Assembly (NCBI GenBank): GCA_903939515.1
Contig: CAJAHH010000144.1
Coordinates: forward strand, 1-34,372
DNA length: 34,372 nt
Reading direction: 5' to 3'
DNA from: an uncultured Verrucomicrobiota bacterium
GTDB lineage: Bacteria > Verrucomicrobiota > Verrucomicrobiia > Limisphaerales > UBA9464
Below, piece after piece: positions 1 to 17,050 of the stretch (positions are counted from its first letter, which is position 1; each line of letters begins with the position of its first letter). The translations under genes were made by a program, and so were the position numbers. The notes beneath the pieces were generated by a model that was not told the origin of the DNA, made no database searches, and saw only the letters and a list, made by a program, of their open reading frames with translations.

Positions 1-133
1 CAAGTCGGCAAGTCGGCAAGTCGGCAAGTCGGCAAGTCGGCAAGTCGGCAAGTCGGCAAGTCGGCAAGTCGGCAAGTCGGCAAGTCGGCAAGTCGGCAAG
101 TCGGCAAGTCGGCAAGTCGGCAAGTCGGCAAGT
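1..133. repeat. 8-bp tandem repeat array (16 full copies plus 5 bases)
   Basis: The octamer CAAGTCGG is repeated 16 times without a mismatch, followed by a partial copy (CAAGT). The array is cut by the window edge, so its full size is unknown. Because 8 is not a multiple of 3, all three forward frames read the same eight-residue cycle (QVGKSASR) with no stop, and the reverse strand is open too. One forward frame stays open from base 2 to a stop at 326-328, so the array could lie inside the 3' part of a gene that begins outside the window. It could equally be non-coding satellite DNA. Confidence 0.97.
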
Positions 134-1075
134 TTGCGACATCCCGCCCGTGAAAAGGCCAGCTCGATGATTGGGCTGGGATTACCTGGGCGGCGATGCC
201 CGACTCGGGCCACCTCGGGCTACCAACACACCCCACGGTCTGCCGACCGAAACTTCGGCGCAGATTCATTAGGTGTGGGTGACTTTTCATTGCGTAGTAT
301 TACATTGATTAACTTATCACTAATTTAAGTCAATATTTTAATATTTTTTAGGTTTTTTGATGCCAATAAAACCTGATTCGAAGGACGCCGATTTTGGCCT
401 TTTTAGTGCCATTTTACGTCATCGACCTCCTGTTTTGGCACACTCCACTGACGCGTTGATTATTTTCGATCCACCCACCGATGACCGGCGGCGTTCTTCC
501 TAGATTTCACGTAGTGACATTCCAAAAAGTTTGTACCGGCGAAGGGGCTGTAGATTGTCGCGATGCTTGGGTCTGGTCGTGGATCCCCACAGCATCAGGC
601 GGGGTCTTTTGCGGGATCGCAAGGGCCGACGATGGACTCAGATCGCCGCACAGGCGGAGTTTTTCTACCACCAGTTCCAGACCCTTCACCGGCAGCGCCC
701 CGGAACGGGACAATGACAGGCGTCTCAGCAACGTTCCGGAATCCACGGAAAGTTGCCGGTTTGAAATTCGCGGTTTTGCCGGATCCTCGGATCCGTTTCC
801 TTCCAGGATGAGCGCCTGCGTTTCTTCCTTCTTCCAAATGAGGCCGAATGCGTCCGGGGCCCACCAGACTTGATAAGAATTCCCTCGGGCAATCGACAAG
901 CTGGGGGCCGGATCGATGATCCGTTGAGTTTCTAAGCTCAGCGGTTTTCAAACCGGCAGGTTTCATCGGTTTTCACCCCGTCGCTGACACAGGCCGGGAC
1001 TGCTGGCTAAGACCGTTCCCGTCTGGGGCCATTTAGTTTTGAAGTCGCCAACATCGCCTCCGTACTCAACGACAC
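134..1075. other. Gene-poor stretch, no supported gene
   Basis: Open frames of 60-130 codons exist on both strands (for example overlapping frames at about 481-873 plus and 507-899 minus), but none shows a recognisable domain, a convincing ribosome site or a hydrophobic pattern. Bases 295-370 are strikingly A+T-rich compared with the surroundings and could hold a promoter, though no clear -35/-10 pair can be assigned. The only structured item is the 48-bp repeat at 942-989. Confidence 0.5.
942..989 (+). repeat. 48-bp long-range direct repeat, left copy
   Basis: This segment matches 34134-34181 at 42 of 48 positions in the same orientation. Each copy contains the nonamer CGGTTTTCA twice, 25 bp apart, and ends in a CCGTCGCxGACA core. 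No open frame is shared, so it looks like a non-coding dispersed repeat found close to both ends of the window. Confidence 0.75.
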
Positions 1076-1474
1076 TTATTCTTCCACGGGAAAATAATCA
1101 TCGCCGCACACCTGATCATCACGATCCCTATCTGGGTTCACCGTCCGACGCGCCGCACACAAATTCTCCGAGAGCACCAGGCCTCCGGCAGCCAATCCAC
1201 CGGCCACTAGGACTGCCCCAAGGCCCCAGGCCAACCGCGGCCGCCCAAGGCCTGCCCGTGCGAAAAATGCCCTGACCCGCCCACGGGCCGACAGGCGCAG
1301 CTGGCCTAACAGGGCGCAACCCGTGAGCACCACCGTCAGGGCCACCAGTGCCGCCATCGGCAAGGTCTCATGGACGAGTCCATAGGTGTACCAGAACGAA
1401 TATACCCACAGCACCGCGGTTGACCTCAGTAGGAAAAAGGGTTGCGGGACGATTTTAGCATTCGTTGCAGCCAC
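1076..1474 (-). CDS. Hypothetical small membrane protein
   Basis: I do not recognise this 132-residue protein. The sequence shows about three hydrophobic stretches: a weak one near residues 17-33, a strong one at 40-57 (MAALVALTVVLTGCALLG), then a basic Arg-rich loop, and a Gly/Ala/Val-rich helix at about 84-103. The tail is acidic and charged (about 110-132). That alternation of helices and a positively charged loop is what a small inner-membrane protein would look like. The start is a GTG; in-frame stops lie a short way upstream. It stands alone in a gene-poor region, so it may be a fragment of a longer membrane protein or a chance frame. Confidence 0.4.
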   Translation of the reverse strand: MAATNAKIVPQPFFLLRSTAVLWVYSFWYTYGLVHETLPMAALVALTVVLTGCALLGQLRLSARGRVRAFFARAGLGRPRLAWGLGAVLVAGGLAAGGLVLSENLCAARRTVNPDRDRDDQVCGDDYFPVEE

Positions 1475-1802
1475 GTTTTCGCCGCTGCCAATCGCGGGTA
1501 GCTCGACAAGTCCTTATCAGGTTTGGAGGTCATGGCTGAGGCCAATCCCGGTCCCTACCGCGACCGTTTTCGAAGCCCCTCGGCAAGCGCTGGGAATGCC
1601 TTTGCTCCCGACTCTGATGATGTGTCCCCTCGGGCGATCGTCACCACCTCCTATCCGACTCCGTCGACCAACTGGGTCGCTGACCTGGCATGGCTCAAGA
1701 AAACGGGCACGCGACGCTGACAGCAAGAGTCCGGCAACTTTACGCACGGTCCAGCCAAGGGCTTTCAACACAGATTCAGGCGCTGATTAGGAAATCTCAG
1801 CA
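1475..1802. other. Intergenic stretch, nothing assignable
   Basis: A plus-strand frame at 1523-1720 (65 codons) is open but shows no domain and has proline/serine-rich, low-information content. I see no RNA gene, terminator or repeat here. Confidence 0.4.
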
Positions 1803-1856
1803 GAGGGATCAAATATCAGAAATCGTTCCCTGCCCCCCTTTTTCCTGACCCCTTTA
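1803..1856 (-). repeat. RAYT-associated dispersed repeat, solitary copy
   Basis: On the minus strand it reads AAAGGGGTCAGGAAAAAGG, then GGGGCAGGGAACGATTTC, then TGATATTTGATCC. The first part matches the right end of the RAYT element at 18278-18313 (AAAAGGGGTCAGGAAAAAGG, then a GGCAG junction, then TTGATATT). The middle part matches 4379-4398 and 8239-8257. A solitary copy without a transposase is what REP-like, transposase-mobilised repeats look like. Confidence 0.65.
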
Positions 1857-2027
1857 CGTTCCCCTGACCACCTTGTCGGCCTGGATCTCAACGATCATGC
1901 CGTCGAGTGGCAGTCGGGGCATTTTTGCGCCGGAGTCATACTCGACGAAGAGCTGGAGGTTTGAGTAGCCTCTGGTATGACAAAACACCCTCAACTCCTC
2001 TTTTTTGGAGTCGATGGATACCCTGAC
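1854..2027 (-). pseudogene. Possible 3' gene fragment, unidentified
   Basis: A minus-strand frame of 57 codons runs from an in-frame stop at 2028-2030 to a TAA at 1854-1856. It reads like real protein (for example LRVFCHTRGYSNLQLF and LPLDGMIVEIQADKVV) rather than a random frame. It has no ATG in its first half, so it looks like the C-terminal end of a gene whose upstream part is gone. The stop codon lies inside the dispersed repeat at 1803-1856. I cannot name the family, and it may still be a chance frame. Confidence 0.25.
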
Positions 2028-2228
2028 TTAGAGATCTGTCGCTGAGGCGGTTACGAACCATTTGTATTGTGAACAGGCTCGTCGAACACCGCCAAGTGCG
2101 CCCGGACAGCCTTGTTTCACAGCGTCCGGATGGGGTGATTTGTGAGGAGGTTGCCGGCTTAAGCACTCACCGCTTCGGTCGAAACCAATGTCGAGGGTTG
2201 GGTTCATCGCCTTCCAATTTCAACTAGC

Positions 2229-2894
2229 ATGCCCTCTCAGAATCCTGCCCAAGAATTCTCGGCCGATGCCCCAAGTGCAGCCGGTGCTGCCCTCAGGGAG
2301 GACACCATCGAATACGGGTTCATCGGCAAGCTCCAGGGGCTCAAGTACACCTACCGACGCGACATTTCAGACCGCGCCTCGCTGGAGAACAACTTCCGCG
2401 AAAACAAAGCCACCATGGATGCGGTGCTGCCTGAGGAAAACTTGCGCGGCTTCAAAGGCCAGTACCTCGAGACAGCCAAGAAGCTCAAAGAACAGCAGGG
2501 CAAGACGGGCGGCAAAGACGACACCACCGACGACCCCGTGGACCAGATCGACTTCGAGTTTGTCCTCTTCGCCTCTGCCGTCATCGATTACGACTACATC
2601 ATGAGCCTCATTGCCTGCTACTCGGCCAAGGGACCGGGCAAGTCGAAGAGGACACGCGAGGAGCTCATCGGCCTCATCAGCGCCGAAGCCAAGTTCATCC
2701 ACGAGCGTGACGACATCGCCATGTGCCTCAGCAGCCTCGACTCCCTGATCACCGCCGAAACCCAACAGCTCGAGGCCCTCAAGACCCACAAACGCGGCCT
2801 GATACAGCAGTTTTTCCCTGCGCCAACGGAGCAACCGCATAACATCGAAGGGCACCACCCTGGATTCCCATCCCCGGAGGAAGCGGAGGCATGA
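2229..2894 (+). CDS. Type I restriction chimera: HsdR N-terminus / HsdR C-terminal part / HsdS C-terminus
   Basis: This intact 221-codon frame joins pieces of two restriction genes. Residues 1 to about 58 resemble the start of an HsdR translocase/endonuclease (DISDRASLENNFRE). Residues about 59-163 resemble the far C-terminal HsdR segment (LPEENLRGFKGQYLETAKK, IDFEFVLFASAVIDYDYI, REELIGLI, KFIHERDDIA). Residues about 164-201 resemble the C-terminal coiled end of the HsdS specificity subunit (CLSSLDSLI, LEALKTHKRGLIQQFFP). The nuclease and DEAD-box helicase core of HsdR (normally around 1,000 residues in all) and both DNA-recognition domains of HsdS are missing. Both joins preserve the frame. 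It cannot act as a restriction enzyme; if made, it would be an orphan assembly-domain protein. It sits 103 bp upstream of rhuM. Family assignment is from remembered motifs, not a search. Confidence 0.8.
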   Translation: MPSQNPAQEFSADAPSAAGAALREDTIEYGFIGKLQGLKYTYRRDISDRASLENNFRENKATMDAVLPEENLRGFKGQYLETAKKLKEQQGKTGGKDDTTDDPVDQIDFEFVLFASAVIDYDYIMSLIACYSAKGPGKSKRTREELIGLISAEAKFIHERDDIAMCLSSLDSLITAETQQLEALKTHKRGLIQQFFPAPTEQPHNIEGHHPGFPSPEEAEA

Positions 2895-2997
2895 GCGCCA
2901 CACCCAAGATTCACCATTTCCCGTTGTCCCATAACCGTCGGGACCGTTTTCGTGGCAGCACGAAAATGGTCCGCCACAGAACCGCCGAGCGACTGCC

Positions 2998-3999
2998 ATG
3001 AACGGCCTGATCCTTTACACCACCGAAGACGGTCGCAGCCAAATCAAGCTGCGGGCCAAGGACCAAACCGTCTGGTTGTCCCAGCGGGAGATGGCCCAAC
3101 TCTTTGACGTGAGCACCGACAATGTGGGTCTGCACCTCAAGAACATTTTCGAGGACCGAGAGCTGGAGGCAAATTCAGTTACCGAGGAATCCTCGGTAAC
3201 TGCCGCCGACGGCAAAAACTACCTCACCAAGCTCTACAACCTCGATGCCATTTTGGCCGTGGGTTACCGGGTGCGCTCGCCTCGTGGCGTGCAGTTCCGC
3301 CGCTGGGCTTCCACCCTCCTTAAGGAATACCTGACCAAGGGTTTCGTGATGGACGACGATCGCCTGAAGAACCCGGATGGCCGCCCGGATTACTTCGACG
3401 AGATGCTGGAACGCATCCGGAACATCCGGGCCTCCGAGAAGCGCTTCTACCAGAAGGTGCGCGACCTGTTCTCGCTGAGCAGCGACTACGACAAGACGGA
3501 CACGGCGACGCAGGCGTTCTTCGCCACGGTGCAGAACCTTCTCATTTTTGCCGTGACGCGGAAGACCGCCGCAGAACTCATCACTACCCGCACCAATCCC
3601 GCCGATCCGCGGTTCGGCCTGCTCGCCTGGAAGGGCGACGCGGTGCGCAAGACGGACATCGTTGAGGCCAAGAATTACCTCACCGAGGATGAGATCAACA
3701 CCCTAAACCGGTTGGTCGTCATCTTCCTTGAAACCGCCGAGCTGCGGGCCAAGAGCAAGCAGGAGACACACATGGCGTTCTGGAAGCAGAACGTGGATCA
3801 GATCATCACCTCCAATGGCTTCCCGCTGCTCACAAACGCCGGTTCTATCAGCCACGAGAAAATGGTGGAGCGCACGGGTGAGCTGTATCTCCAGTTCGAC
3901 GCAAACCGCAAACAGCGCGAGGCCATAGAAGCTGACCAGCAGGACGAGGCCGACCTCAACTCCTTGGAAACCCAACTGAAAAGACGCCGTCAACAATGA
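2998..3999 (+). CDS. rhuM: RhuM-family (virulence RhuM) protein
   Basis: A 333-residue, apparently full-length member of the RhuM family, first described in a Salmonella pathogenicity island and often found inside type I restriction-modification operons and genomic islands. Visible family features are the N-terminal YxTEDG start, an HTH-like segment VWLSQREMAQLFDVSTDNV (about 26-44), HLKNIFEDREL (about 47-57), the KLYNLDAILAVGYRV block (about 78-92), RGVQFRRWASTLLKEYLTKG (about 95-114) and a charged C-terminal tail. The DNA-binding-like N-terminus suggests a regulatory or toxin-like role, but its biochemical function is not established. It is the only unbroken gene in a cluster of restriction and toxin-antitoxin fragments. 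Its TGA stop overlaps an ATG at 3996 (ATGA), suggesting it was once in a tightly packed operon. Confidence 0.9.
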   Translation: MNGLILYTTEDGRSQIKLRAKDQTVWLSQREMAQLFDVSTDNVGLHLKNIFEDRELEANSVTEESSVTAADGKNYLTKLYNLDAILAVGYRVRSPRGVQFRRWASTLLKEYLTKGFVMDDDRLKNPDGRPDYFDEMLERIRNIRASEKRFYQKVRDLFSLSSDYDKTDTATQAFFATVQNLLIFAVTRKTAAELITTRTNPADPRFGLLAWKGDAVRKTDIVEAKNYLTEDEINTLNRLVVIFLETAELRAKSKQETHMAFWKQNVDQIITSNGFPLLTNAGSISHEKMVERTGELYLQFDANRKQREAIEADQQDEADLNSLETQLKRRRQQ

Positions 4000-4064
4000 A
4001 CGACACCAACCAAAAGAAATCGGGCCCACTCTCTCGGGCATCGCTGATCCACTACACGACGTGA
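3996..4064 (+). pseudogene. Truncated downstream start codon region (22 codons)
   Basis: An ATG overlaps the rhuM stop as ATGA and opens a 22-codon frame (MNDTNQKKSGPLSRASL) that stops at 4062-4064. The overlap is typical of a real downstream gene in an operon, so this may be the first codons of a gene whose body was deleted, like the other fragments around it. It is too short to identify. Confidence 0.2.
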
Positions 4065-4113
4065 TTGTTACCCCCCTTGATCCCAGTGCGGATTTTCGCG
4101 TAAAAATGTTTTT

Positions 4114-4336
4114 ATGAGAACCACCCTGGATCTGCCCGATCCGCTGTTTCGCCGAAGATTCCCTCGCCGCCGAAAAGCGCTTTGAACTCTGGAGCCGCGT
4201 CCCGGGGTTTCCATCGAACCGCTGGACCGACGCCTGGATCGCCGCCCTCGCCTCGTCTGCAGGAGCCCGCGTCATCTCCTTCGACTCGGATTTCACCACT
4301 TTCCCTGACCTCGATTTCCTTCACCTGCGCCCATGA
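4114..4336 (+). pseudogene. VapBC toxin-antitoxin remnant (antitoxin start fused out of frame to PIN-domain toxin end)
   Basis: The ATG at 4114 opens MRTTLDLPDPLFR, a typical VapB antitoxin start, which then runs into a stop after about 22 codons. In another frame, 4154-4336 encodes 60 residues ending a PIN-domain VapC toxin: NRWTDAWIAALASSAGARV and SFDSDFTTFPDLDFL carry the late acidic residues of the PIN fold. The rest of VapB and the N-terminal part of VapC, with the first catalytic Asp, are gone. The vapC stop overlaps the hsdM start as ATGA at 4333-4336, so the original pair probably preceded hsdM in one operon. No functional toxin or antitoxin can be made. Confidence 0.7.
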
Positions 4337-4378
4337 CCGACACCAAACAACGCCAACTGGGCAATACCCTCTGGCAAC
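4333..4378 (+). pseudogene. Truncated start of type I methyltransferase HsdM
   Basis: The first 14-15 codons (MTDTKQRQLGNTLW) match the characteristic N-terminus of HsdM subunits (compare MTDxKQxQLGxTLW). After the Trp codon the similarity stops abruptly and the sequence continues as the dispersed repeat at 4379-4398. The S-adenosylmethionine-binding and catalytic NPPF regions are absent. The frame stays open for about 150 codons but reads as nonsense, so I treat only the first segment as genuine. Confidence 0.65.
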
Positions 4379-4398
4379 AGGGTCAGGGAACGATTTTC
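4379..4398 (+). repeat. Dispersed repeat copy at the hsdM break point
   Basis: The core GGTCAGGGAACGATTTTCG matches the minus strand of the repeat at 1803-1856 and the copy at 8239-8257 (one or two changes). It begins where hsdM similarity ends, which suggests the repeat was involved in, or inserted at, the truncation. Confidence 0.55.
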
Positions 4399-4600
4399 GA
4401 ATTTGCTTCAGCCGCATGTTCGCTGCTCATGGCTAATGCCTCGACCAGAACACCGGGTCGGGAGACCTGGCCCACAGATTCTCCGAGTCCTGGTGACAGC
4501 GTTCCCCAGGCCGTGCGAACGCACGCACACCGCAATTTGTTTTATCCGAACTCCCACTCGGAAGATTGTCTTGAGGAACACCCCTCCCTAGCCTGTTGGC

Positions 4601-6799
4601 ATGAAATCCCGCTGGCTATCCCTGCTGGCCGGCACTGCTGCCGCCCTGATGGCAGTGGAGACTCTATTTTACCTCCCGGTTTTGGCTTCGACCGCGAGTC
4701 CCCTGAGCTTCAACAGGGACGTGCGACCCATCCTTTCGAACCACTGTTTTCCGTGCCATGGGCCCGATGTCCAGCAGCGGAAAGCTCAACGTCGGCTAGA
4801 CACCTTCGATGGGTCTGTAGCCCTTCGTGACGGTATCCAAGGTATCGCGCCGGGAAAACCCGCTCAGAGCGAGTTGTGGCGACGCGTGACCTCATCGGAT
4901 CCGGAGGAGGTCATGCCACCGCCCAAGTCAGCGAAGCGGTTGTCTGAGGCCGAAAAACGCACCCTTCGCGCTTGGATCGAAAACGGTGCTCGATATGAGG
5001 CTCATTGGTCCTTTGAACCTCCACAACTAGTTCCCGCTCCCCGCACCATCGATGGATCCTGGCCGCGGAATCCGATCGATGCCTTCGTGCTGGATCGCCT
5101 CGAAAAAGAGGGCCTAAAACCCGCACCCGCGGCAGCCCCTGAACTTCTCCTGCGCCGCGCATCGCTCGATTTGACCGGACTCCCGCCCTCCGAGGCTCTG
5201 CTCTGTCGATTTTCATCCAACCCAAACGATCAGGAGTATTTACGGGCGGTCGATGAACTCATGGCGTCTTACGCCTATGCGGAACGTCAAGCCCAAGACT
5301 GGCTCGATCTGGCACGGTACGCCGACTCCAACGGTTTTTCCGACGACCAGACGCGCACCATTTGGCCCTATCGGGACTGGGTGATCAAAGCCATCGCCCA
5401 GAACATGCCTTTCGACCAGTTCACCATTGAACAACTAGCCGGTGACTTGTTGCCCGGGGCTACTCCCGAACAAACGATTGCCTCGGCGTTCCACCGGAAC
5501 GCGCCCCAGGCCAAGGGCAACACTTATCCAGTCGAAGAATACCGCATCAAAGGCGTCATCGACCGGGTCAACACAACGGGCACCGCCTGGCTGGGGCTGA
5601 CCCTCGGATGCGCCGAATGCCACGACCACAAATTCGATCCGATCAGCCAGCGTGAATACTTTTCGCTGTTCGCAATTTTTAACAACGTGGTGCACAGCGG
5701 CGAAGCCTTTGCCCAAGACGGACCCTTCTTCGATACACCGCTTCCCGCCGACATGGCCGGAAAGTCTCCGGCAAATCGCACGGTGCGGAAAATTCCGGTA
5801 ATGGCAGAACAGGCGACTCCGCGTGAGACCCGGGTGCATGTCCGCGGCAATTTTCTGCGGAAGGGAGAGATTGTCTTACCCGGAGTCCCAGCCGTGTTCG
5901 GGACGGCTTCAGGGACACACCCGACCAATCGGCTTCAACTGGCCCGCTGGCTGGTGGACGGAAAAAACCCCCTGACCGCACGTGTGGCAGTGAATCGTTT
6001 GTGGCAGTCCAGCTTCGGCCAAGGATTGGTTCGAACGCCTGCCGATTTCGGAAAACAGGGCGCATCGCCGTCCCACCCGGAACTGCTGGATTGGTTAGCC
6101 CGCGAACTCGTCTCCAGCGGCTGGAATCTCCGACTCATCCATCGATGGATCGTGACCTCGTCCACCTACCGGCAGGCCTCACACAACCCCGGCGATCCAG
6201 CACGGCTTCTGGACCCTCAGAATCTCCTATTGGCCCGGGCGCCGCGTCCACGACTGGGGGCTGAACAAATCCGGGATCAGGCTCTGGCTACTGCTGGACT
6301 GCTCACTTTGGCCTGCGGCGGTGAACCGGTCTTTCCCCACCAACCCGAACACTATTGGGAAGAACGAGCCTTACCCGGAAAATGGGCTCCCAGCCTCGGG
6401 GCCGACCGATACCGCCGCAGCCTGTACACTTATTGGCGGCGCATGGCGCTGCATCCCACTCTGGAACTGCTCGATGCACCTGCCCGAACCGTGTGCACGG
6501 CCAAACGAACTGTGTCCAATGTGCCCACGCAAGCGCTGGTGACCCTGAACGACCCCGTCTTCACTGAGGCGGCTGAGGCCTTCGCCCAAAGAATTTTGCA
6601 CGAGGCCCCTGCCACCGATACGACCCGCCTCGAACGCGGCTTCCGACTGGCTTTAGCCCGCAAGCCTTCTCCGGAAGAACGCACGCGGTTCCTCGAATTC
6701 CTCGCCCTGCAGCACGCACGAGGTCTGGATGATGCAGCGGCCTGGACCCGCGCTGCGGCGGTCCTGCTTAATCTGGATGAATTCTTGTGCCGGCCATGA
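4601..6799 (+). CDS. PSD1-type cytochrome-domain protein (DUF1549/DUF1553)
   Basis: A 732-residue exported protein of the family first defined in planctomycetes and also abundant in Verrucomicrobia. A signal or anchor helix occupies residues 7-30. A cytochrome-like PSCyt1 domain follows, with [19 protein letters not shown]; its CFPCH motif at 49-53 is a c-type haem site. The DUF1549 (PSCyt2) domain spans about 150-360 and includes [14 protein letters not shown], a second CxxCH. The DUF1553 (PSD1) domain spans about 415-700 ([45 protein letters not shown]). It lacks the LamG, PA14 or Ig-type insertions seen in the 1,000-residue members. The molecular role is not established; these proteins are always found next to a DUF1501 gene and are thought to act in periplasmic breakdown or oxidation of complex substrates. 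The stop overlaps the next ATG (ATGA), so the pair is translationally coupled. Confidence 0.93.
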
Positions 6800-8199
6800 A
6801 CCGCTCCCCCTTTCCCACCGAACGGCTGGCGACTTCCTCTCGCCGAGCCTTCTTGCAACACAGTGCAGCGGGCTTGGGCACCATCGCGCTGAGCACCTTG
6901 CTGAGGGCCGACCCGCGCGGAACCCATTTCGCCGCGAAGGCCAAGCGGGTCATTTTTCTCTTCATGGCGGGCGGACCGTCCCATGTGGATCTTTTTGATC
7001 CAAAGCCCCGGCTTCAGAAACTGGACGGAAAACCCATCCCAGCCGAATTGCTCAAGGACCATCAGCAATTCGCCCTCATCCGGGGCACTCCTGCCCTCAA
7101 AGGATCCTCCCGCCTCTTTGCACCCTGTGGGCGCTCCGGAACCATCGTGTCCGATTGGTTGCCCCATCTGGCCCGGGTGGTCGATGACATCGCGGTGATC
7201 CGTTCCATGAAAACGGACACCAATGTCCACGATCCGGCCGTCAACCTGATGAACTGCGGATCCATGATGTTCGATCGGCCCACGTTGGGGGCCTGGCTCT
7301 CCTACGGACTCGGATCCGACAATCACAACCTGCCGGCCTACATGGTCCTGACCTCCGGGTTCGATGACGGCCAGCCGCTGCTCCAAAGCTTCTGGGGCAA
7401 CGGGTTCCTCGATTCACGTCATCAAGGCGTTCCCTTTCGCAATCAAGGAGATGCCGTCCTGCACTTGGCTAATCCGGCAACGGTCACGCGAGAACAACGC
7501 CGCGAGCAACTCGACCTACTCCGTTGGATGAACCAACGCCAGCATGACGCGCTGGGCGATCCTGAGATTTTGTCGCGCATCGCATCGTACGAGATGGCCT
7601 TCCGCATGCAGGCCAGCGTTCCCGCGTTGACCGACCTTCGAAACGAGTCGCCAGCGACCCTTCGACTGTACGGCGCGGAACCAGGAAAACCCTCCTTCGC
7701 CAACAATTGTTTGATGGCACGAAGACTCGTCGAAGACGGCGTCCGATTCGTTCAACTCTATGACCGAGGATGGGATTCTCACACGGACATCCAACGGGAG
7801 CATACTCGCCAATGCACCGCTACTGATCGACCCACCGCAGCGCTTTTGACCGACCTCAAGCAACGCGGGTTGCTCGACGACACGCTCGTCATCTGGGGAG
7901 GCGAGTTTGGTCGCACGCCTGTCGCCCAGGTTTCCGGCAAGACCTTTGGGCGAGATCACCATCCCCACGCCTTCACCATGTGGATGGCCGGAGGCGGCGT
8001 GAAGCGCGGGGTCACCTACGGCACCACCGACGAGTTCGGCTACCACACCGAGGAGAACCCGGTGCACGTTCACGATCTCCACGCAACCATCCTGCACCTC
8101 TTGGGCATCGATCACGAACGACTCGTCTTCCGAAACCAAGGCCGGGATTTCCGCCTCACCGATGTCTCAGGAACCGTGGTGAAGGCTCTGCTGGCTTGA
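6796..8199 (+). CDS. DUF1501 domain protein, Tat-exported
   Basis: A 467-residue member of the DUF1501 family, distantly related to alkaline phosphatase/sulfatase-type folds. I chose the ATG at 6796 over the in-frame GTG at 6787 because it forms the ATGA overlap with the preceding stop. A twin-arginine signal SSRRAFLQHSAAGLG (about 13-27) predicts folded export through the Tat system. Family landmarks are FLFMAGGPSHVDLFDPKP near the N-terminus, VHDPAVNLMNCGSM, YDRGWDSHTDI, VIWGGEFGRTP and GRDHHPHAFTMWMAGGG near the C-terminus; the conserved Asp, His and Glu residues suggest a metal site. It forms a two-gene operon with the PSD1 gene. The substrate is unknown. Confidence 0.95.
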   Translation: MNRSPFPTERLATSSRRAFLQHSAAGLGTIALSTLLRADPRGTHFAAKAKRVIFLFMAGGPSHVDLFDPKPRLQKLDGKPIPAELLKDHQQFALIRGTPALKGSSRLFAPCGRSGTIVSDWLPHLARVVDDIAVIRSMKTDTNVHDPAVNLMNCGSMMFDRPTLGAWLSYGLGSDNHNLPAYMVLTSGFDDGQPLLQSFWGNGFLDSRHQGVPFRNQGDAVLHLANPATVTREQRREQLDLLRWMNQRQHDALGDPEILSRIASYEMAFRMQASVPALTDLRNESPATLRLYGAEPGKPSFANNCLMARRLVEDGVRFVQLYDRGWDSHTDIQREHTRQCTATDRPTAALLTDLKQRGLLDDTLVIWGGEFGRTPVAQVSGKTFGRDHHPHAFTMWMAGGGVKRGVTYGTTDEFGYHTEENPVHVHDLHATILHLLGIDHERLVFRNQGRDFRLTDVSGTVVKALLA

Positions 8200-11583: not shown

Positions 11584-12225
11584 ATGGCAGACCTGACGCA
11601 CCTCTTCGCCCAAAATAAAACTTGGGCCGCCAAGATCACCCAAAGCGACCCGGAGTTTTTTCAAAAACTCTCCCGCCAACAAAACCCCGAGCACCTGTGG
11701 ATCGGCTGCTCCGACAGCCGCGTACCCGCCAATGAAATCATTGGCCTGTTGCCCGGCGAAGTCTTCGTCCACCGCAACATCGCCAACGTCGTCGTCCACA
11801 CCGATCTGAATTGTCTCTCTGTGATCCAATTCGCCGTCGATGTGTTGAAAATCAAACACATCATGGTCGTGGGACACTACGGCTGCGGCGGCGTGCGCAC
11901 CGTGCTGCGCTGCGAACGCGTGGGCCTCGCCGACAACTGGCTGCGCCACGTCCAAGACGTCCGCGAAAAACACCAGTGTCGTATTGATGCCCTGCCCGGT
12001 GAACCCGCCCAGCACGATCGTCTCTGCGAACTCAACGTCATCGAACAAGTCGCCAACGTCTGCCAAACCACGATCGTCCAAGACGCCTGGGCACGCGGCC
12101 AAAACGTCACGGTGCATGGCTGGATCTACGGCCTCAAAGACGGCCTTTTGCGCAACCTCAACACCAGCGTCGCAAACCCCGCCGATCTACCCACCGCACA
12201 AGCCGCCGCCCTCGCGGCGCTCTGA
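11584..12225 (+). CDS. can: Beta-class carbonic anhydrase
   Basis: A 213-residue cytoplasmic zinc enzyme interconverting CO2 and bicarbonate, very close in layout to E. coli Can. With the ATG at 11584, the zinc ligands and the Asp/Arg pair fall at Cys42, Asp44 and Arg46 (WIGCSDSRVPANEI) and at His98 and Cys101 (VVGHYGCGGV), the same numbering as the E. coli enzyme. That supports this start over the longer frame from 11470. Other family blocks are FVHRNIANVV and VHGWIYGLKDGLL. Length is normal. It is followed by the beta-propeller gene after 38 bp, but there is no functional link I can see. Confidence 0.96.
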   Translation: MADLTHLFAQNKTWAAKITQSDPEFFQKLSRQQNPEHLWIGCSDSRVPANEIIGLLPGEVFVHRNIANVVVHTDLNCLSVIQFAVDVLKIKHIMVVGHYGCGGVRTVLRCERVGLADNWLRHVQDVREKHQCRIDALPGEPAQHDRLCELNVIEQVANVCQTTIVQDAWARGQNVTVHGWIYGLKDGLLRNLNTSVANPADLPTAQAAALAAL

Positions 12226-12263
12226 GGGATTGTATTTGTCCGCAAATCAGTTGGGCTGAACCG

Positions 12264-13643
12264 ATGCAAGAACACCTGCCCACAACGCACTCCGGGGCAA
12301 ATCGGTGGTGGCCCATTTGCGTGGCAGCTGCCCTCGCGTTGCTGGGAACGTGGACCGACGGTGGACTCCGTGCCGATGACTGGCCGCAATGGCTAGGACC
12401 CCAGCGGGATGCAAACTGGAGGGAGAGTGGAATCCTGAAGGCATTTCCCGCCGGCGGCCCCCGACGGGTGTGGCGCACCGCCATCGGATCCGGATACACG
12501 GGACCGGCCGTGGTCGGAAATCGGGTGTACCTGATGGATCGCCAGGTCGCAACCAATGCGGCGAAAGCAAAAAATGCGTTCGACACATCGTCGATTGCCG
12601 GTACCGAACGGGTCCTTTGCCTCGATGCCGCCGATGGAAAGGTGGTCTGGCAACGATCCTACAATTCCAGTTACACGGTCAGTTACGCAGCGGGTCCGCG
12701 AACGACACCGGTCGTTGCCGACGGTCGCGTGTACACACTGGGAGCCATGGGCCAGCTTGCCTGCCAGAACACCCGGGACGGATCTGTGGTCTGGAGCCGG
12801 GACTTCGTGGCCGATTACGGGCTCAAGGTTCCGATTTGGGGCGTTTCGGCGCATCCGCTGCTCGATGGAAATAAGCTCATTTGCATGGTCGGTGGCGAAG
12901 GGAGCGTGGCCGTTGCTTTCGACAAAAACACCGGGCGCGAACTCTGGCGAGCCCTGTCCGCCAAAGAGCCCGGTTACTGTCCCCCCGTCATTTATAAACT
13001 CGGCGGCCGACGCCAATTAATCCTCTGGCATGCCGAGGCGGTGAACGGACTGGATCCGGAGACCGGCCGAGTGCTCTGGAGTGAACCTTGGAAACTCAAC
13101 TACGGGTTGGCCATCCCCACTCCCCGTCTGCTGGACGACGGACTCTTCCTCACCTGCTTCTACAATGGATCCATGCGTCTGCGATTTGAACCCGGACACG
13201 AGGTGCCAGTGGTGGCCTGGAAGACCGCGAAGCAAAGCGAGCGCGACACCGTGAATCTCAACTCCATCATGGCCACACCGTGGGTGGAGGACGGCTATGT
13301 GTACGGCCCTTGCAGTTACGGACAGTTCCGCTGCCTGCGTCTGGATACCGGTGAGCGCCTCTGGGAGACCTTCCAGCCCACCGTGGGCAAGGCCGAGCGT
13401 TGGGGAAACTGCTTCGTGGTGAAAAACGGGGCGCAATGGTTCCTGCTCAGCGAACAGGGCGACCTGATCATCGCCCGCCTGTCACCGAAGGGGTACGAGG
13501 AACTCAGCCGGGCGCACGTCATCGAACCGGACAACCGCGACCCCGGTCGTCCGGTCGTCTGGAGTCATCCGGCTTTTGCCCACCGGCGAATCTACCTTCG
13601 AAACGACAGCGAGATCCTCTGCTACGATCTGGCTGCCAAGTAA
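12264..13643 (+). CDS. PQQ-type beta-propeller repeat protein (secreted)
   Basis: A 459-residue protein with an N-terminal hydrophobic helix (about 13-27) ending before ADDWPQWLGPQRD, the usual entry of verrucomicrobial and planctomycetal PQQ-like propellers. Successive blades are visible as repeated G-x-V-x-W or L-x-W units: DGKVVWQRSY, DGSVVWSRDF, TGRELWRAL, TGRVLWSEPW, TGERLWETF. Such proteins share the fold of BamB and of quinoprotein dehydrogenases, but this one has no obvious PQQ-binding or dehydrogenase active site, so it is better seen as a binding or scaffold propeller in the periplasm. It may be co-transcribed with the downstream GH13 gene (58 bp gap). Confidence 0.87.
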   Translation: MQEHLPTTHSGANRWWPICVAAALALLGTWTDGGLRADDWPQWLGPQRDANWRESGILKAFPAGGPRRVWRTAIGSGYTGPAVVGNRVYLMDRQVATNAAKAKNAFDTSSIAGTERVLCLDAADGKVVWQRSYNSSYTVSYAAGPRTTPVVADGRVYTLGAMGQLACQNTRDGSVVWSRDFVADYGLKVPIWGVSAHPLLDGNKLICMVGGEGSVAVAFDKNTGRELWRALSAKEPGYCPPVIYKLGGRRQLILWHAEAVNGLDPETGRVLWSEPWKLNYGLAIPTPRLLDDGLFLTCFYNGSMRLRFEPGHEVPVVAWKTAKQSERDTVNLNSIMATPWVEDGYVYGPCSYGQFRCLRLDTGERLWETFQPTVGKAERWGNCFVVKNGAQWFLLSEQGDLIIARLSPKGYEELSRAHVIEPDNRDPGRPVVWSHPAFAHRRIYLRNDSEILCYDLAAK

Positions 13644-13701
13644 CCCAGCCTAAGAATTACTCCGTACGATCCCCACCACCCCCCGATCGGCGGCCACACC
13701 G

Positions 13702-15558
13702 ATGGCCCAGGTGGACAAGAACGAAGCCCCCATGACTGCAACCCCAGAGTCTCTCCGAATGCTCCGCGGAATCACCGTGTGGCTCATACTGCTGTGGACG
13801 CCTCGGGTTCTGGCCACTCCGCCGGACTGGGCGGCTGACGCCATTTGGTACCAGATCTTTCCCGAACGGTTCCGCAACGGGGACGCGAAGAACGACCCGG
13901 TCCCTGCCAGTCTCGAAGGCACCTGGCCTTATGAAGTACCCGCGGGTTGGAAGGTCTCACCCTGGACTTCCGACTGGTACGCACTCCAACCGTGGGAGCA
14001 GGCCAGCGGAAAAGACTTCTACCACAACGCCCAACTCCGCCGCTACGGAGGCGATCTCCAAGGCATTCTCGACCGACTCGATTACCTGAAAGATCTGGGC
14101 ATCAATGCCCTGTATCTCAATCCGGTCTTCGACTCCCCGTCGCTCCACAAATATGGCGCGGCGCGATACCATCATATCGACCGTCATTTCGGTCCGGATC
14201 CCGCCGGCGATGCCGCTCTGTTCGCCGCCGAAGATCCCGCCGATCCGGCCACTTGGCGCTGGAGTGCAGCCGACCGGCTGTTCCTGAAACTCATCCGCGA
14301 AGCCCACCACCGGAAGATGCGCATCATCATCGATGGGGTTTTCAACCATACCGGAACCACCTTCTGGGCCCTCCAACAGGCCCGACGGGAAGGCCCCAGC
14401 AGCCGCTTCGCCCGCTGGTTCCACATCACCCGCTGGGATGATCCGGCCACCCCGGCCGATGAGTTCGACTACCAGGGATGGTCCGGCATCAAAGACCTAC
14501 CGGAAATCCAACGGGATGCGGAGAATTTGCACCCCGAAGTACGCCAGCATTTCCATTCGATCGTGCGCCGATGGATGGACCCCAATGGCGACGGCAACCC
14601 CGAGGAGGGCATCGACGGGTGGCGCGTGGACGTTGCTGCTGAAGTGCCCATGGGATTCTGGAAGGAGTTCCGGGGATGGGTGCACACCCTCAACCCACAG
14701 GCCTACATCACCGGTGAGATCTGGTGGGAGGACTATTCAGCCAACACCTTCCGCAATGCCCGCCCTTGGCTCGATCAGTCCTTTGATGGGGTGATGAACT
14801 ACCGATTCGGAGACGCCGTCTTCCAATTCCTCAATCAACCCCGATCCATCACACCGGCCCAGTTCGCGGAAGCTCTGGAACTCCAGCACCGGCACTACGG
14901 CTACGACCGATGCCTGGCCCTCCAGAATCTCCTGGGCTCCCACGACACCGCGCGGGTCGGATCGGCGGTGGTCAACCCGTCGGCACGCCAAGACCACGGA
15001 GCCTCACTCAAGGAGGACCGGGGCTACGATCCGCGGGCCCCCAACGCAGCCGAGAAAGCCCGATGGCGGCAAATGATCGCCCTGCAGTTCCTCTCGCCCG
15101 GAGCCCCGTACCTGTATTACGGGGACGAAGTCGGGATGTGGGGAGCCGATGATCCCGATTGCCGCAAACCCATGGTCTGGGCCGATCTCCACTACACGCC
15201 AGAGAAGCGACTGCCCTCCGGCCACGAGCGCCCAGCCGACGCGGTGACCGTGGACACGGCTCAAGCGAAGTACTATCGCGATTGGATCCAACGCCGGCAC
15301 GCGCACCCCGCCCTCCGCCGCGGAGATTATCACACGCTGCCCCTTGAGCAGCGGTTCGGCCTCCTCGCCTTCGAACGCCGCTGGCAGGAAGATCGGATCA
15401 TCGCCCTTTTCAACCCCCGGGACACGCCCGTGCGGATATCGCCCCAAGATCTCGGCCTCCAAGACCTGCGCCTCTGGAAACAGGAACCTCCCCACCCCGC
15501 AGACTCCACAGCCATCGAAGTCCCCGCCCATCAATACCGCATCCTCACTCATCGGTGA
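13702..15558 (+). CDS. GH13 alpha-amylase-family glycosidase (neopullulanase/cyclomaltodextrinase-like)
   Basis: A 618-residue retaining alpha-glucan hydrolase. All GH13 landmarks are present: DLGINALYLNPVF (about 131-143), DGVFNHTG (211-218), GIDGWRVDVAAEVP with nucleophile Asp310, YITGEIWWED with acid/base Glu339, and LLGSHDTARVG with the transition-state Asp at about 415. AIWYQIFPERFRNGD near residue 47 is typical of neopullulanase-type enzymes. The starts at 13732 and 13759 are real alternatives, since the hydrophobic segment RGITVWLILLWTPRVLA followed by TPPDW looks like a signal peptide and no strong ribosome site favours 13702. Codons 345-385 are duplicated at 17264-17385. It would cleave maltodextrins or starch outside the cytoplasm. 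Confidence 0.94.
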   Translation: MAQVDKNEAPMTATPESLRMLRGITVWLILLWTPRVLATPPDWAADAIWYQIFPERFRNGDAKNDPVPASLEGTWPYEVPAGWKVSPWTSDWYALQPWEQASGKDFYHNAQLRRYGGDLQGILDRLDYLKDLGINALYLNPVFDSPSLHKYGAARYHHIDRHFGPDPAGDAALFAAEDPADPATWRWSAADRLFLKLIREAHHRKMRIIIDGVFNHTGTTFWALQQARREGPSSRFARWFHITRWDDPATPADEFDYQGWSGIKDLPEIQRDAENLHPEVRQHFHSIVRRWMDPNGDGNPEEGIDGWRVDVAAEVPMGFWKEFRGWVHTLNPQAYITGEIWWEDYSANTFRNARPWLDQSFDGVMNYRFGDAVFQFLNQPRSITPAQFAEALELQHRHYGYDRCLALQNLLGSHDTARVGSAVVNPSARQDHGASLKEDRGYDPRAPNAAEKARWRQMIALQFLSPGAPYLYYGDEVGMWGADDPDCRKPMVWADLHYTPEKRLPSGHERPADAVTVDTAQAKYYRDWIQRRHAHPALRRGDYHTLPLEQRFGLLAFERRWQEDRIIALFNPRDTPVRISPQDLGLQDLRLWKQEPPHPADSTAIEVPAHQYRILTHR

Positions 15559-15640
15559 TCCGGCACCGACAAGCGAGTTGGCTATTGAACTTTAGGACCT
15601 TGGCTCACGATGCCTTTCCTACCATAACTCGTCCGAAAGC

Positions 15641-17050
15641 ATGGCAATCACGGTTTCACAGATCGACGCCTGGCGAGCGGCCCGTTCCGAACACCAGAAT
15701 CTGGAGTTCAAGGAGGCGAAGGCTCAGTTCGACAACCGCAAGCTCTACCGATACTGCGTGGCCCTGGCGAATGAGGGCGGTGGGCATCTGCTGCTGGGCA
15801 TCGAAGACCATCCGCCCCGCCGGGTGGTGGGCACGGCCGCCTTCAATGATCCGATCGACATGGCGGCCAAGCTTTTCCAGGCGCTGGGTTTCCGCGTGGA
15901 TATCGAGGAGGTCGCACATCCCGATGGCCGGGTGCTGGTGTTCGCCATTCCCAGCAGGCCTCGCGGAACGGCCTTCAATTTCGAGGGATCCTACCTGATG
16001 CGCGCCGGTGAAGAGCTGGTGCCAATGAGCGAGGACCGGTTGCGGGCGATCTTTGCCGAGGGCCAGCCGGACTGGCTTTCCCAACCGGCCATGACGGATT
16101 GCGACGATGACAAGGTGGTTCAGGTGCTGGACACCCAAAGCTACTTCGACCTGCTGCATCTGCCGTATCCGGCGAACCGGACGGGCGTCCTGGAGCGTAT
16201 TCAACATGAGAAGCTGATCGTGCGACAAGGGCAAGGTTGGACGATTACGAACCTGGGCGGGTTGCTGTTTGCCAAGCGGCTGGATGCCTTTGACCGGCTG
16301 GCGCGCAAGGCGGCGCGAGTGATCGTCTATGAGGGCAGGAACAAGCTGAAAACGAAGACCGACAAGCCGGGGACAAAAGGCTATGCCGTCGGCTTCCAGG
16401 GACTGGTGGAGTTCATCAACGGACTGGTCCCGTCCAATGAAGTGATCGAGCAGGCCTTGCGCCGGGAAGTGAAGATGTTCCCGGAGATCGCCGTCCGCGA
16501 GCTGGTGGCCAACGCGTTGATCCACCAGGATTTCAATGAATCAGGCTCTTCGGTGATGATCGAGATCTACGAGGACCGGATGGAAATCTCCAATCCCGGA
16601 AAGCCCTTCATCCCAACCGACCGCTTCATCGACGAATACCAGTCGCGCAATGAGCGGCTAGCGGATGTGATGCGTCGGCTGGGAATCTGCGAAGAAAAGG
16701 GCAGCGGCGTGGACAAGGTGATCCAGGCGGCGGAGGTATTTCAGCTGCCCGCCCCCGATTTCCGTGTGGGGGACCGGCGCACGTCCGCGGTGCTGTTCGC
16801 ACACCAAACCCTGGATGGCATGGATCGGAACGACCGCATCCGGGCCTGCTACCAACATTGCTGCCTGCGTTATGTGATGAACGAGAAAATGACCAACCAA
16901 AGCCTGCGGGAGCGATTCCAATTGCCGGAAGGAAAGGTGGCGTCCGTCTCGCAGATCATCGCCACCACGGTGGATGCCGGCAAAATCAAGCTGGCCGACC
17001 CCACCCAAACCTCCACCCGTTACCGGAGTTATGTGCCGTTTTGGACCTGA
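15641..17050 (+). CDS. ATP-binding protein with AlbA_2 (Schlafen AAA_4) domain
   Basis: A 469-residue protein of the COG2865 type, once labelled a RecG-like regulator. The N-terminal AlbA_2/AAA_4 domain (about 15-130) opens with the family signature NLEFKEAK and continues with ALANEGGGHLLLGIED. A middle helical region carries WTITNLGGLLFAKRLD. A GHKL-like ATPase domain lies at about 280-370 (AVRELVANALIHQDF, MEISNPGKP, GICEEKGSGVDKVI, containing the N- and G-box patterns). The C-terminal 80 residues look like a winged-helix. Such genes are common passengers in type I restriction-modification operons and are thought to regulate transcription or respond to phage. It is followed 88 bp later by an hsdR fragment, consistent with that setting. 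The frame is intact. Confidence 0.9.
   Translation: MAITVSQIDAWRAARSEHQNLEFKEAKAQFDNRKLYRYCVALANEGGGHLLLGIEDHPPRRVVGTAAFNDPIDMAAKLFQALGFRVDIEEVAHPDGRVLVFAIPSRPRGTAFNFEGSYLMRAGEELVPMSEDRLRAIFAEGQPDWLSQPAMTDCDDDKVVQVLDTQSYFDLLHLPYPANRTGVLERIQHEKLIVRQGQGWTITNLGGLLFAKRLDAFDRLARKAARVIVYEGRNKLKTKTDKPGTKGYAVGFQGLVEFINGLVPSNEVIEQALRREVKMFPEIAVRELVANALIHQDFNESGSSVMIEIYEDRMEISNPGKPFIPTDRFIDEYQSRNERLADVMRRLGICEEKGSGVDKVIQAAEVFQLPAPDFRVGDRRTSAVLFAHQTLDGMDRNDRIRACYQHCCLRYVMNEKMTNQSLRERFQLPEGKVASVSQIIATTVDAGKIKLADPTQTSTRYRSYVPFWT

Follow-up and report, generated by a model that had tools for sequence, protein, structure and literature searches.

Subunits of type I restriction enzymes have been joined by design. 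Excerpts of a published report describe HsdR nuclease-HsdM, HsdM-HsdS and HsdM-half-HsdS proteins, and indicate that some in-frame fusions are expressed and assemble (PMC6158711). As presented in those excerpts, the engineered fusions join functional domains (HsdR N-terminus to HsdM, or HsdM to HsdS), whereas the frame analysed here consists of short HsdR and HsdS remnants fused by deletion. It lies in a stretch of 34,372 nucleotides from the draft genome of an uncultured Verrucomicrobiota bacterium (G000), the whole of which is called the window below. A second point of comparison is the ordinary bacterial deletion pseudogene, which shows short-repeat deletions, broken neighbours and a near-neutral ratio of replacement to silent changes. 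The chimera shares all of these features, with several broken neighbours, and differs in that its two successive deletions are in frame and cross a gene boundary. We conclude that the frame is very probably a pseudogene scar, the recent deletion product of a type I restriction operon.

The composition of the parent operon can be read from relatives. The gene order in one of them (L006) is hsdR, hsdS, rhuM, hsdM, and the chimera locus retains the order hsdR-hsdS-rhuM of L006. Both in L006 and in L005, hsdS directly overlaps rhuM, and rhuM overlaps hsdM, by 4 nt. Since rhuM stands between hsdS and hsdM in 24 of the 57 loci that have hsdM, it is one of several cargoes. A less decayed operon is found in another genome of the same genus (G008, locus L137), which carries the C-terminal part of hsdS, a gene for an 879-residue AAA protein, a gene for a Schlafen/AlbA_2 protein, rhuM and an intact hsdM; hsdS is cut there by the contig end, and hsdR is not on the stretch. 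The rhuM stretch of L137 is 85% identical to window positions 2997-4047 at the nucleotide level. By this comparison the window reads as a collapsed version of the same operon, in which hsdR and hsdS have become the chimera, rhuM is kept and hsdM is reduced to 5' scraps.

Parts and joins of the chimera

The forward-strand frame at 2229-2894 starts with ATG, ends with TGA and comprises 221 codons without an internal stop. In piecewise scans, residues 1-58 matched the PADLOC type I REase model (REase_I) at model positions 5-40 of 976 (E 1.4e-4); residues 59-163 matched the same model at 766-866 (about 766-874 by another reading; E 9e-18) as well as Pfam EcoR124_C (E 1.1e-22); and residues 163-221 matched PADLOC Specificity_I models (best E 1e-16). 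The whole frame matched EcoR124_C (PF12008) with E 1.1e-23, covering Pfam positions 62-168 or so of 260. Neither the frame nor its pieces matched any NCBIfam model. When aligned with intact HsdR and HsdS proteins of other loci, the frame shows its joins at ..NNFRE|NKAT.. and ..HERDDIA|xCLSSLD... The separate scans and the alignment thus bear out an earlier, sequence-only reading, in which an HsdR N-terminal segment, an HsdR C-terminal segment and the C-terminal end of HsdS were taken to be fused.

The ends of the chimera appear to coincide with the ends of its parent genes. Its first codon falls at the HsdR start region of relatives (MPPA.. in L007, MPSQ.. in L009), and the ATG is apparently the original hsdR start codon, while its stop fits the HsdS end of relatives (..LFPSPEEVEA). 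The HsdR C-terminal segment is 82% identical to HsdR of L006 and L007. Within the HsdS tail is an additional in-frame stretch of about 51 nt, found neither in L006 nor in the other intact HsdS ends compared.

All three parts derive from type I HsdR (EcoR124_C, PF12008) and HsdS, but the chimera differs from the intact subunits in that HsdR from about 58 to 810 is mostly gone and HsdS is nearly all gone. Judged as an HsdR subunit, it is missing the nuclease and SF2 motor domains, which lie between the two remaining pieces, and its EcoR124_C domain is incomplete. Judged as an HsdS subunit, it has no pair of target-recognition domains with conserved spacers; about 40 residues match one conserved spacer. 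Against solved structures, the chimera gave three hits to troponin C, all at chance level (E 0.43-0.49).

At join 1, relatives have GAG or GAA followed by AAG or AAA on one side (HsdR FRE-K) and GAA or GAG followed by AAC on the other (HsdR E-NK), in identical codon phase (nine variants viewed per side, out of 34 and 14 distinct ones). A homology of up to 5 nt, GA[A/G]AA, is therefore possible at this join, with relatives standing in for the true parents. At join 2, ATCGCC occurs in identical codon phase in HsdR ERDDIA and HsdS xRIAxCLSSLD of most relatives (again nine variants viewed per side, out of 26 and 53 distinct ones), and a few deviate (ATT GCC, ATC GCT, ATC GCA, ATA GCC). The sequence-only reading had proposed a short-homology deletion at the second join; the shared ATCGCC agrees with this, but the second join may not be the only one with homology, given the possible GA[A/G]AA at the first. 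In relatives the two copies of each short homology share one codon phase. A deletion between repeats of this kind is necessarily in frame, so the joins could fall in frame without selection. More generally, same-phase short homologies in the genes of an operon can give in-frame chimeras without selection; for that reason, a fused frame that is open in a defence island provides weak evidence of function.

We propose the following course of events. The parent would have been a type I operon, hsdR-hsdS-rhuM with cargo and hsdM, that encoded an EcoR124-like HsdR and was probably acquired horizontally. Several deletions would then have collapsed it: one took about 750 codons inside hsdR, another the end of hsdR together with nearly all of hsdS, and to judge from relatives both probably occurred between short repeats in the same codon phase. 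The outcome would be a frame of 221 codons, begun by the old start codon of hsdR and closed by the old stop codon of hsdS. Its survival as an open frame would reflect the recency of the event and a probable exchange of the segment between sister species by recombination, rather than any need for the protein.

The rest of the island was also described as broken in the sequence-only reading, and this description is corroborated by the hsdM 5' scraps, by the out-of-frame join in the cargo remnant and by a frameshift in rhuM of a sister species (L004), where an 82-nt deletion has removed the equivalent of window positions 3555-3636 or thereabouts (Table 1). We found no hsdM in the window beyond the second scrap. 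A search of window positions 1-6000 against Rfam gave nothing at the gathering threshold, and a reverse-strand frame at 1939-2166 has no Pfam match.

Table 1. Features of the chimera and its island (window positions), with partial hsdM copies in other loci (positions in those loci)
Feature	Position	Strand	Evidence
HsdR N-terminal segment, codons 1-58	2229..2402	+	PADLOC REase_I match; aligns to intact HsdR N-termini, e.g. L007, L009, L070
Join 1, GAAAA	2400..2404	+	Codons of relatives
HsdR C-terminal segment, middle part of EcoR124_C domain	2403..2720	+	PF12008
Join 2, ATCGCC (Ile-Ala)	2715..2720	+	Codons of relatives
HsdS C-terminal segment with original hsdS stop	2721..2894	+	PADLOC Specificity_I, E 1e-16; alignment of tail with intact HsdS C-termini
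In-frame addition of about 51 nt in HsdS tail, flanked on each side by TTCCC	about 2820..2870, edges approximate	+	17-residue gap relative to L006
36-codon frame with ATGA overlaps with chimera stop and rhuM start	2891..3001	+	Sequence
rhuM (Virulence_RhuM; PADLOC PDC-S05), open	2998..3999	+	PF13310, E 4.6e-102; PADLOC, E 2.2e-139
First partial hsdM 5' copy (MNDTNQKK...), overlaps rhuM stop	3996..4053	+	80% nucleotide match to intact hsdM start of G008 (L137)
Two-gene cargo remnant: antitoxin-like N-terminus MRTTLDLPDPLFRR joined out of frame to PIN-domain C-terminus	4114..4336	+	Three-frame translation
Second partial hsdM 5' copy, MTDTKQRQLGNTLW	4333..4374	+	tblastn, E 0.025; 83-88% nucleotide match to three places in L137
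hsdM 5' copies, L137	reversed stretch of G008:C29, 4545-4672 and 5698-5843		
hsdM 5' copies, L070	14259-14413 and 15398-15483		
hsdM 5' copy, L030	14029-14116		
hsdM 5' copy, L062	13147-13266		

The chimera in sister species

The full-length chimera, with identical joins and matching flanks, is also present in two further draft genomes of the genus. The copy in L003 (G001, SYMJ01000068.1) has 99% and that in L004 (G005, JAPLUF010000231.1) 98% protein identity; one base just after join 2 varies between the copies. Counting its own genome, three genomes have the chimera, out of 19 searched in the genus, 50 in the family and 96 relatives. Among the best 80 of 475 relatives on genome contigs it is full-length in two. 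We detected no full-length copy in 9 viral loci, and in none of 44 plasmid records does a single place cover 80%.

Spacing in the relatives leads to the same two sisters. We measured the gap between the two HsdR pieces and that between HsdR and HsdS in 89 loci (80 from genomes, the best of 475, and 9 viral). The gap between the HsdR pieces is 2000-2600 nt in 69 loci, has another value in 2 and is unmeasurable in 16; the HsdR-HsdS gap is at least 600 nt in 76 and unmeasurable in 11. For both measures, a gap of zero occurs only in L003 and L004. Together with the presence of the chimera in both sisters, this argues for a shared deletion product, not for an error in a single assembly and not for a stand-alone family. 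We rejected the stand-alone family, the outcome named beforehand as fatal to the fusion, because the full-length matches seen, on genome contigs among the best 80 of 475 relatives, are limited to G000, G001 and G005, in an identical place, as one deletion lineage; the suggested search for the same fused architecture elsewhere led to the two sister species. Matches by tblastn that span residues 13-170 in L005, L019, L021 and L029 were set aside as alignment extensions. Each of these four loci has a separate HsdR N-terminus upstream, with 2.3-3.3 kb between, and the viral locus L123 was unmeasurable.

An artefact of assembly or binning is an explanation to which we give almost no credence. All the drafts involved are fragmented, into 160, about 250 and about 410 contigs, and the L003 contig terminates inside rhuM. 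Against an artefact, three separate assemblies have identical joins, and the flanking DNA is homologous as well, to the left for both sisters and to the right for L004.

The history of the segment may differ from that of its surroundings. Across positions 1851-3290, which include 378 nt upstream of the frame, the three copies diverge by 0-2.4% per block, whereas the left flank (160-1176) differs by 9.6-13.7% from L003 and by 3.5-7.0% from L004. Two 3-kb stretches elsewhere in the window were also compared: for the first, identity is 94-97% in G005, and G001 has only a 199-nt match at 74%; for the second, identity is 95% in G005 and 96% in G001. By flank, the copy closest to the window is that of L004; by chimera, L003 and L004 form the closest pair, with 2 differences between them and 5 and 7 to the window, all small numbers. 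From this discordance between flank and chimera we infer that the segment was exchanged between species by recombination after the chimera had formed.

Constraint and competing readings of the open frame

Across the three species the chimera has 7 variable codons, 5 with replacements and 2 silent, and two of the five replacements fall within the additional 51-nt stretch. Against L004, the chimera has a ratio of replacement to silent changes of 5:2, and rhuM one of 5:1. The two genes that follow, at 4601-6799 and 6787-8199, have ratios of 14:36 and 3:33, or 17:69 pooled. The difference from the pooled neighbours gives P = 0.0075 for the chimera, P = 0.0027 for rhuM and P = 8.7e-5 for both together (Fisher's test). 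Five or more replacements out of seven have a probability of at most 0.03 under omega of 0.15 or less; with only 7 variable codons, the counts are compatible with omega of 0.3-0.5. The chimera is thus under relaxed constraint relative to neighbouring genes, on small counts. No stop or frameshift interrupts it in any of the three species; under neutrality, seven changes would leave it free of stops with a probability of about 0.77-0.82.

Highly conserved positions are mostly kept in the HsdR pieces, and rhuM keeps them as well as relatives do. In the HsdR C-terminal piece 2 of 44 are altered, a level found in 14 of 86 homologues; one of these two changes, from M to R at codon 141, is absent in L004. 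The HsdR N-terminal piece has 0 of 15 altered, and rhuM 2 of 114, which 9 of 28 relatives match. In the HsdS piece 2 of 12 are altered, a level reached by 3 of 62. This pattern says that the event is recent, and by itself fits recency and weak constraint equally.

In the sequence-only reading, retention of the frame raised the possibility that a product is made and kept, for example as an interfering fragment. That proposal finds no support in the same-phase homologies at the joins or in a ratio of 5:2 set beside 17:69. In a weaker form, in which the frame is kept under slight constraint as a relay to rhuM or as a short product that still touches type I complexes, it is improbable in our judgement. 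If it were true, a restriction operon would have been trimmed by in-frame deletions to a relay and one accessory defence gene.

The relay would be translational, with ribosomes passing from the old hsdR start through the chimera and the 36-codon frame to rhuM. Two ATGA overlaps, at 2891-2894 and 2998-3001, do lead from the chimera to rhuM, the hsdS-rhuM and rhuM-hsdM overlaps of L005 and L006 are likewise 4 nt long, and rhuM is open in the window. Against such a role, rhuM itself has the 5:1 ratio relative to L004, where it is frameshifted by 82 nt, and in L003 it is cut by the contig end, so that one of three copies is shown whole. We regard a relay as very unlikely. Still lower in our estimation stands an expressed and selected small protein that would dock on type I methylase or restriction complexes as a dominant interfering fragment. 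In its favour, the frame is open at full length in three species and retains the start codon of hsdR and the stop codon of hsdS, and the fold is predicted best in the HsdS helix (block means of 68-81 pLDDT over residues 171-200). The ratio of 5:2, unlike that of neighbouring genes, speaks against it, and so do the searches of the three drafts: G000, G001 and G005 (96%, 79% and 80% complete) have no EcoR124_C match apart from the chimera, and its own genome has no second relative of it save a chance-level match (E 0.39). Other type I-like matches do occur. Those in G000 are without an EcoR124_C match, namely C100 (2539-12717), which has HSDR_N, an N6_Mtase frame with one internal TAG and Methylase_S at 24 bits, and C31 (28936-29070), which has a weak HSDR_N match. 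G005 has N6_Mtase on C330 (two; 12082-15956) and C105, and HSDR_N on C67. The AlphaFold prediction is poor overall (mean pLDDT 46, pTM 0.23), which is weak evidence given an alignment of the three chimeras and HsdR C-terminal pieces only (21 of 33 sequences) that is thin outside the HsdR piece; HsdS and HsdR N-terminal rows were dropped because they aligned wrongly. A pseudogene scar of recent origin accordingly remains our preferred reading of the frame.

Partial hsdM copies, cargo and a palindrome

Partial hsdM 5' copies of about 30-50 codons stand before cargo such as rhuM in distant hosts as well, with a complete hsdM after the cargo. Searching each locus with its own hsdM start, we detected a further partial match in 6 of 57 loci: L030, L070 (two copies), L137 (two), L062, L079 (25 nt) and L076. 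The match in L076 was set aside, as it lies far upstream and begins at nt 20. A stricter protein search, which read L137 in the other orientation, gave a full and a partial hsdM copy in 3 of 62 loci (L030, L062 and L070). In L030, L062, L070 and L137, one hsdM copy ends about 15-45 nt ahead of rhuM, and the window has its two hsdM scraps beside its own cargo. The arrangement suggests that cargo was inserted more than once and brought a new hsdM start with it, a stepwise embedding that would restore hsdM each time, for example by one-sided homologous recombination. Such copies beside cargo may tell how embedded genes enter type I operons. In the literature collection searched, no paper combines 'embedded', 'type I restriction' and 'RhuM'.

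The cargo remnant of the window has a PIN match (PF01850, E 4.8e-5), and its antitoxin-like N-terminus is one that we take to be VapB-like. The out-of-frame join of the two is another deletion scar in the chimera's island.

Between the hsdS remnant and rhuM, at 2943-2970, is a palindrome, ACCGTTTTCGTGGCAGCACGAAAATGGT. Its pattern has 16 matches in 15 of 123 loci, a count that excludes 14 window, sister and duplicate loci, and none in three mononucleotide shuffles. A tighter pattern occurs in at least 120 viral stretches and in 4 of 145 relative genomes, at one place each, the chimera's own genome not being among them; a looser pattern has a single match in that genome, at 2943-2970. In the largest protein cluster around the palindrome (14 loci), members overlap the site and the representative reads ..DVNKMV.., presumably a DinD/BRO-like motif, so that at least some of the palindromes appear to be coding sequence. 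A type I or RhuM relative is present at 4 of 124 loci with the pattern. We dropped, without disproving it, the idea of a regulatory hairpin common to type I operons.

Two further observations concern the surroundings and the relatives. The contig opens with a tandem CAAGTCGG repeat run (window positions 1-132). In two other genomes, HsdR N-terminal matches lie in 81-codon frames (L088, G031:C86:10901-11092, and L089, G052:C59:9840-10031), one of them with a TAG; these frames are possibly further decayed hsdR genes.
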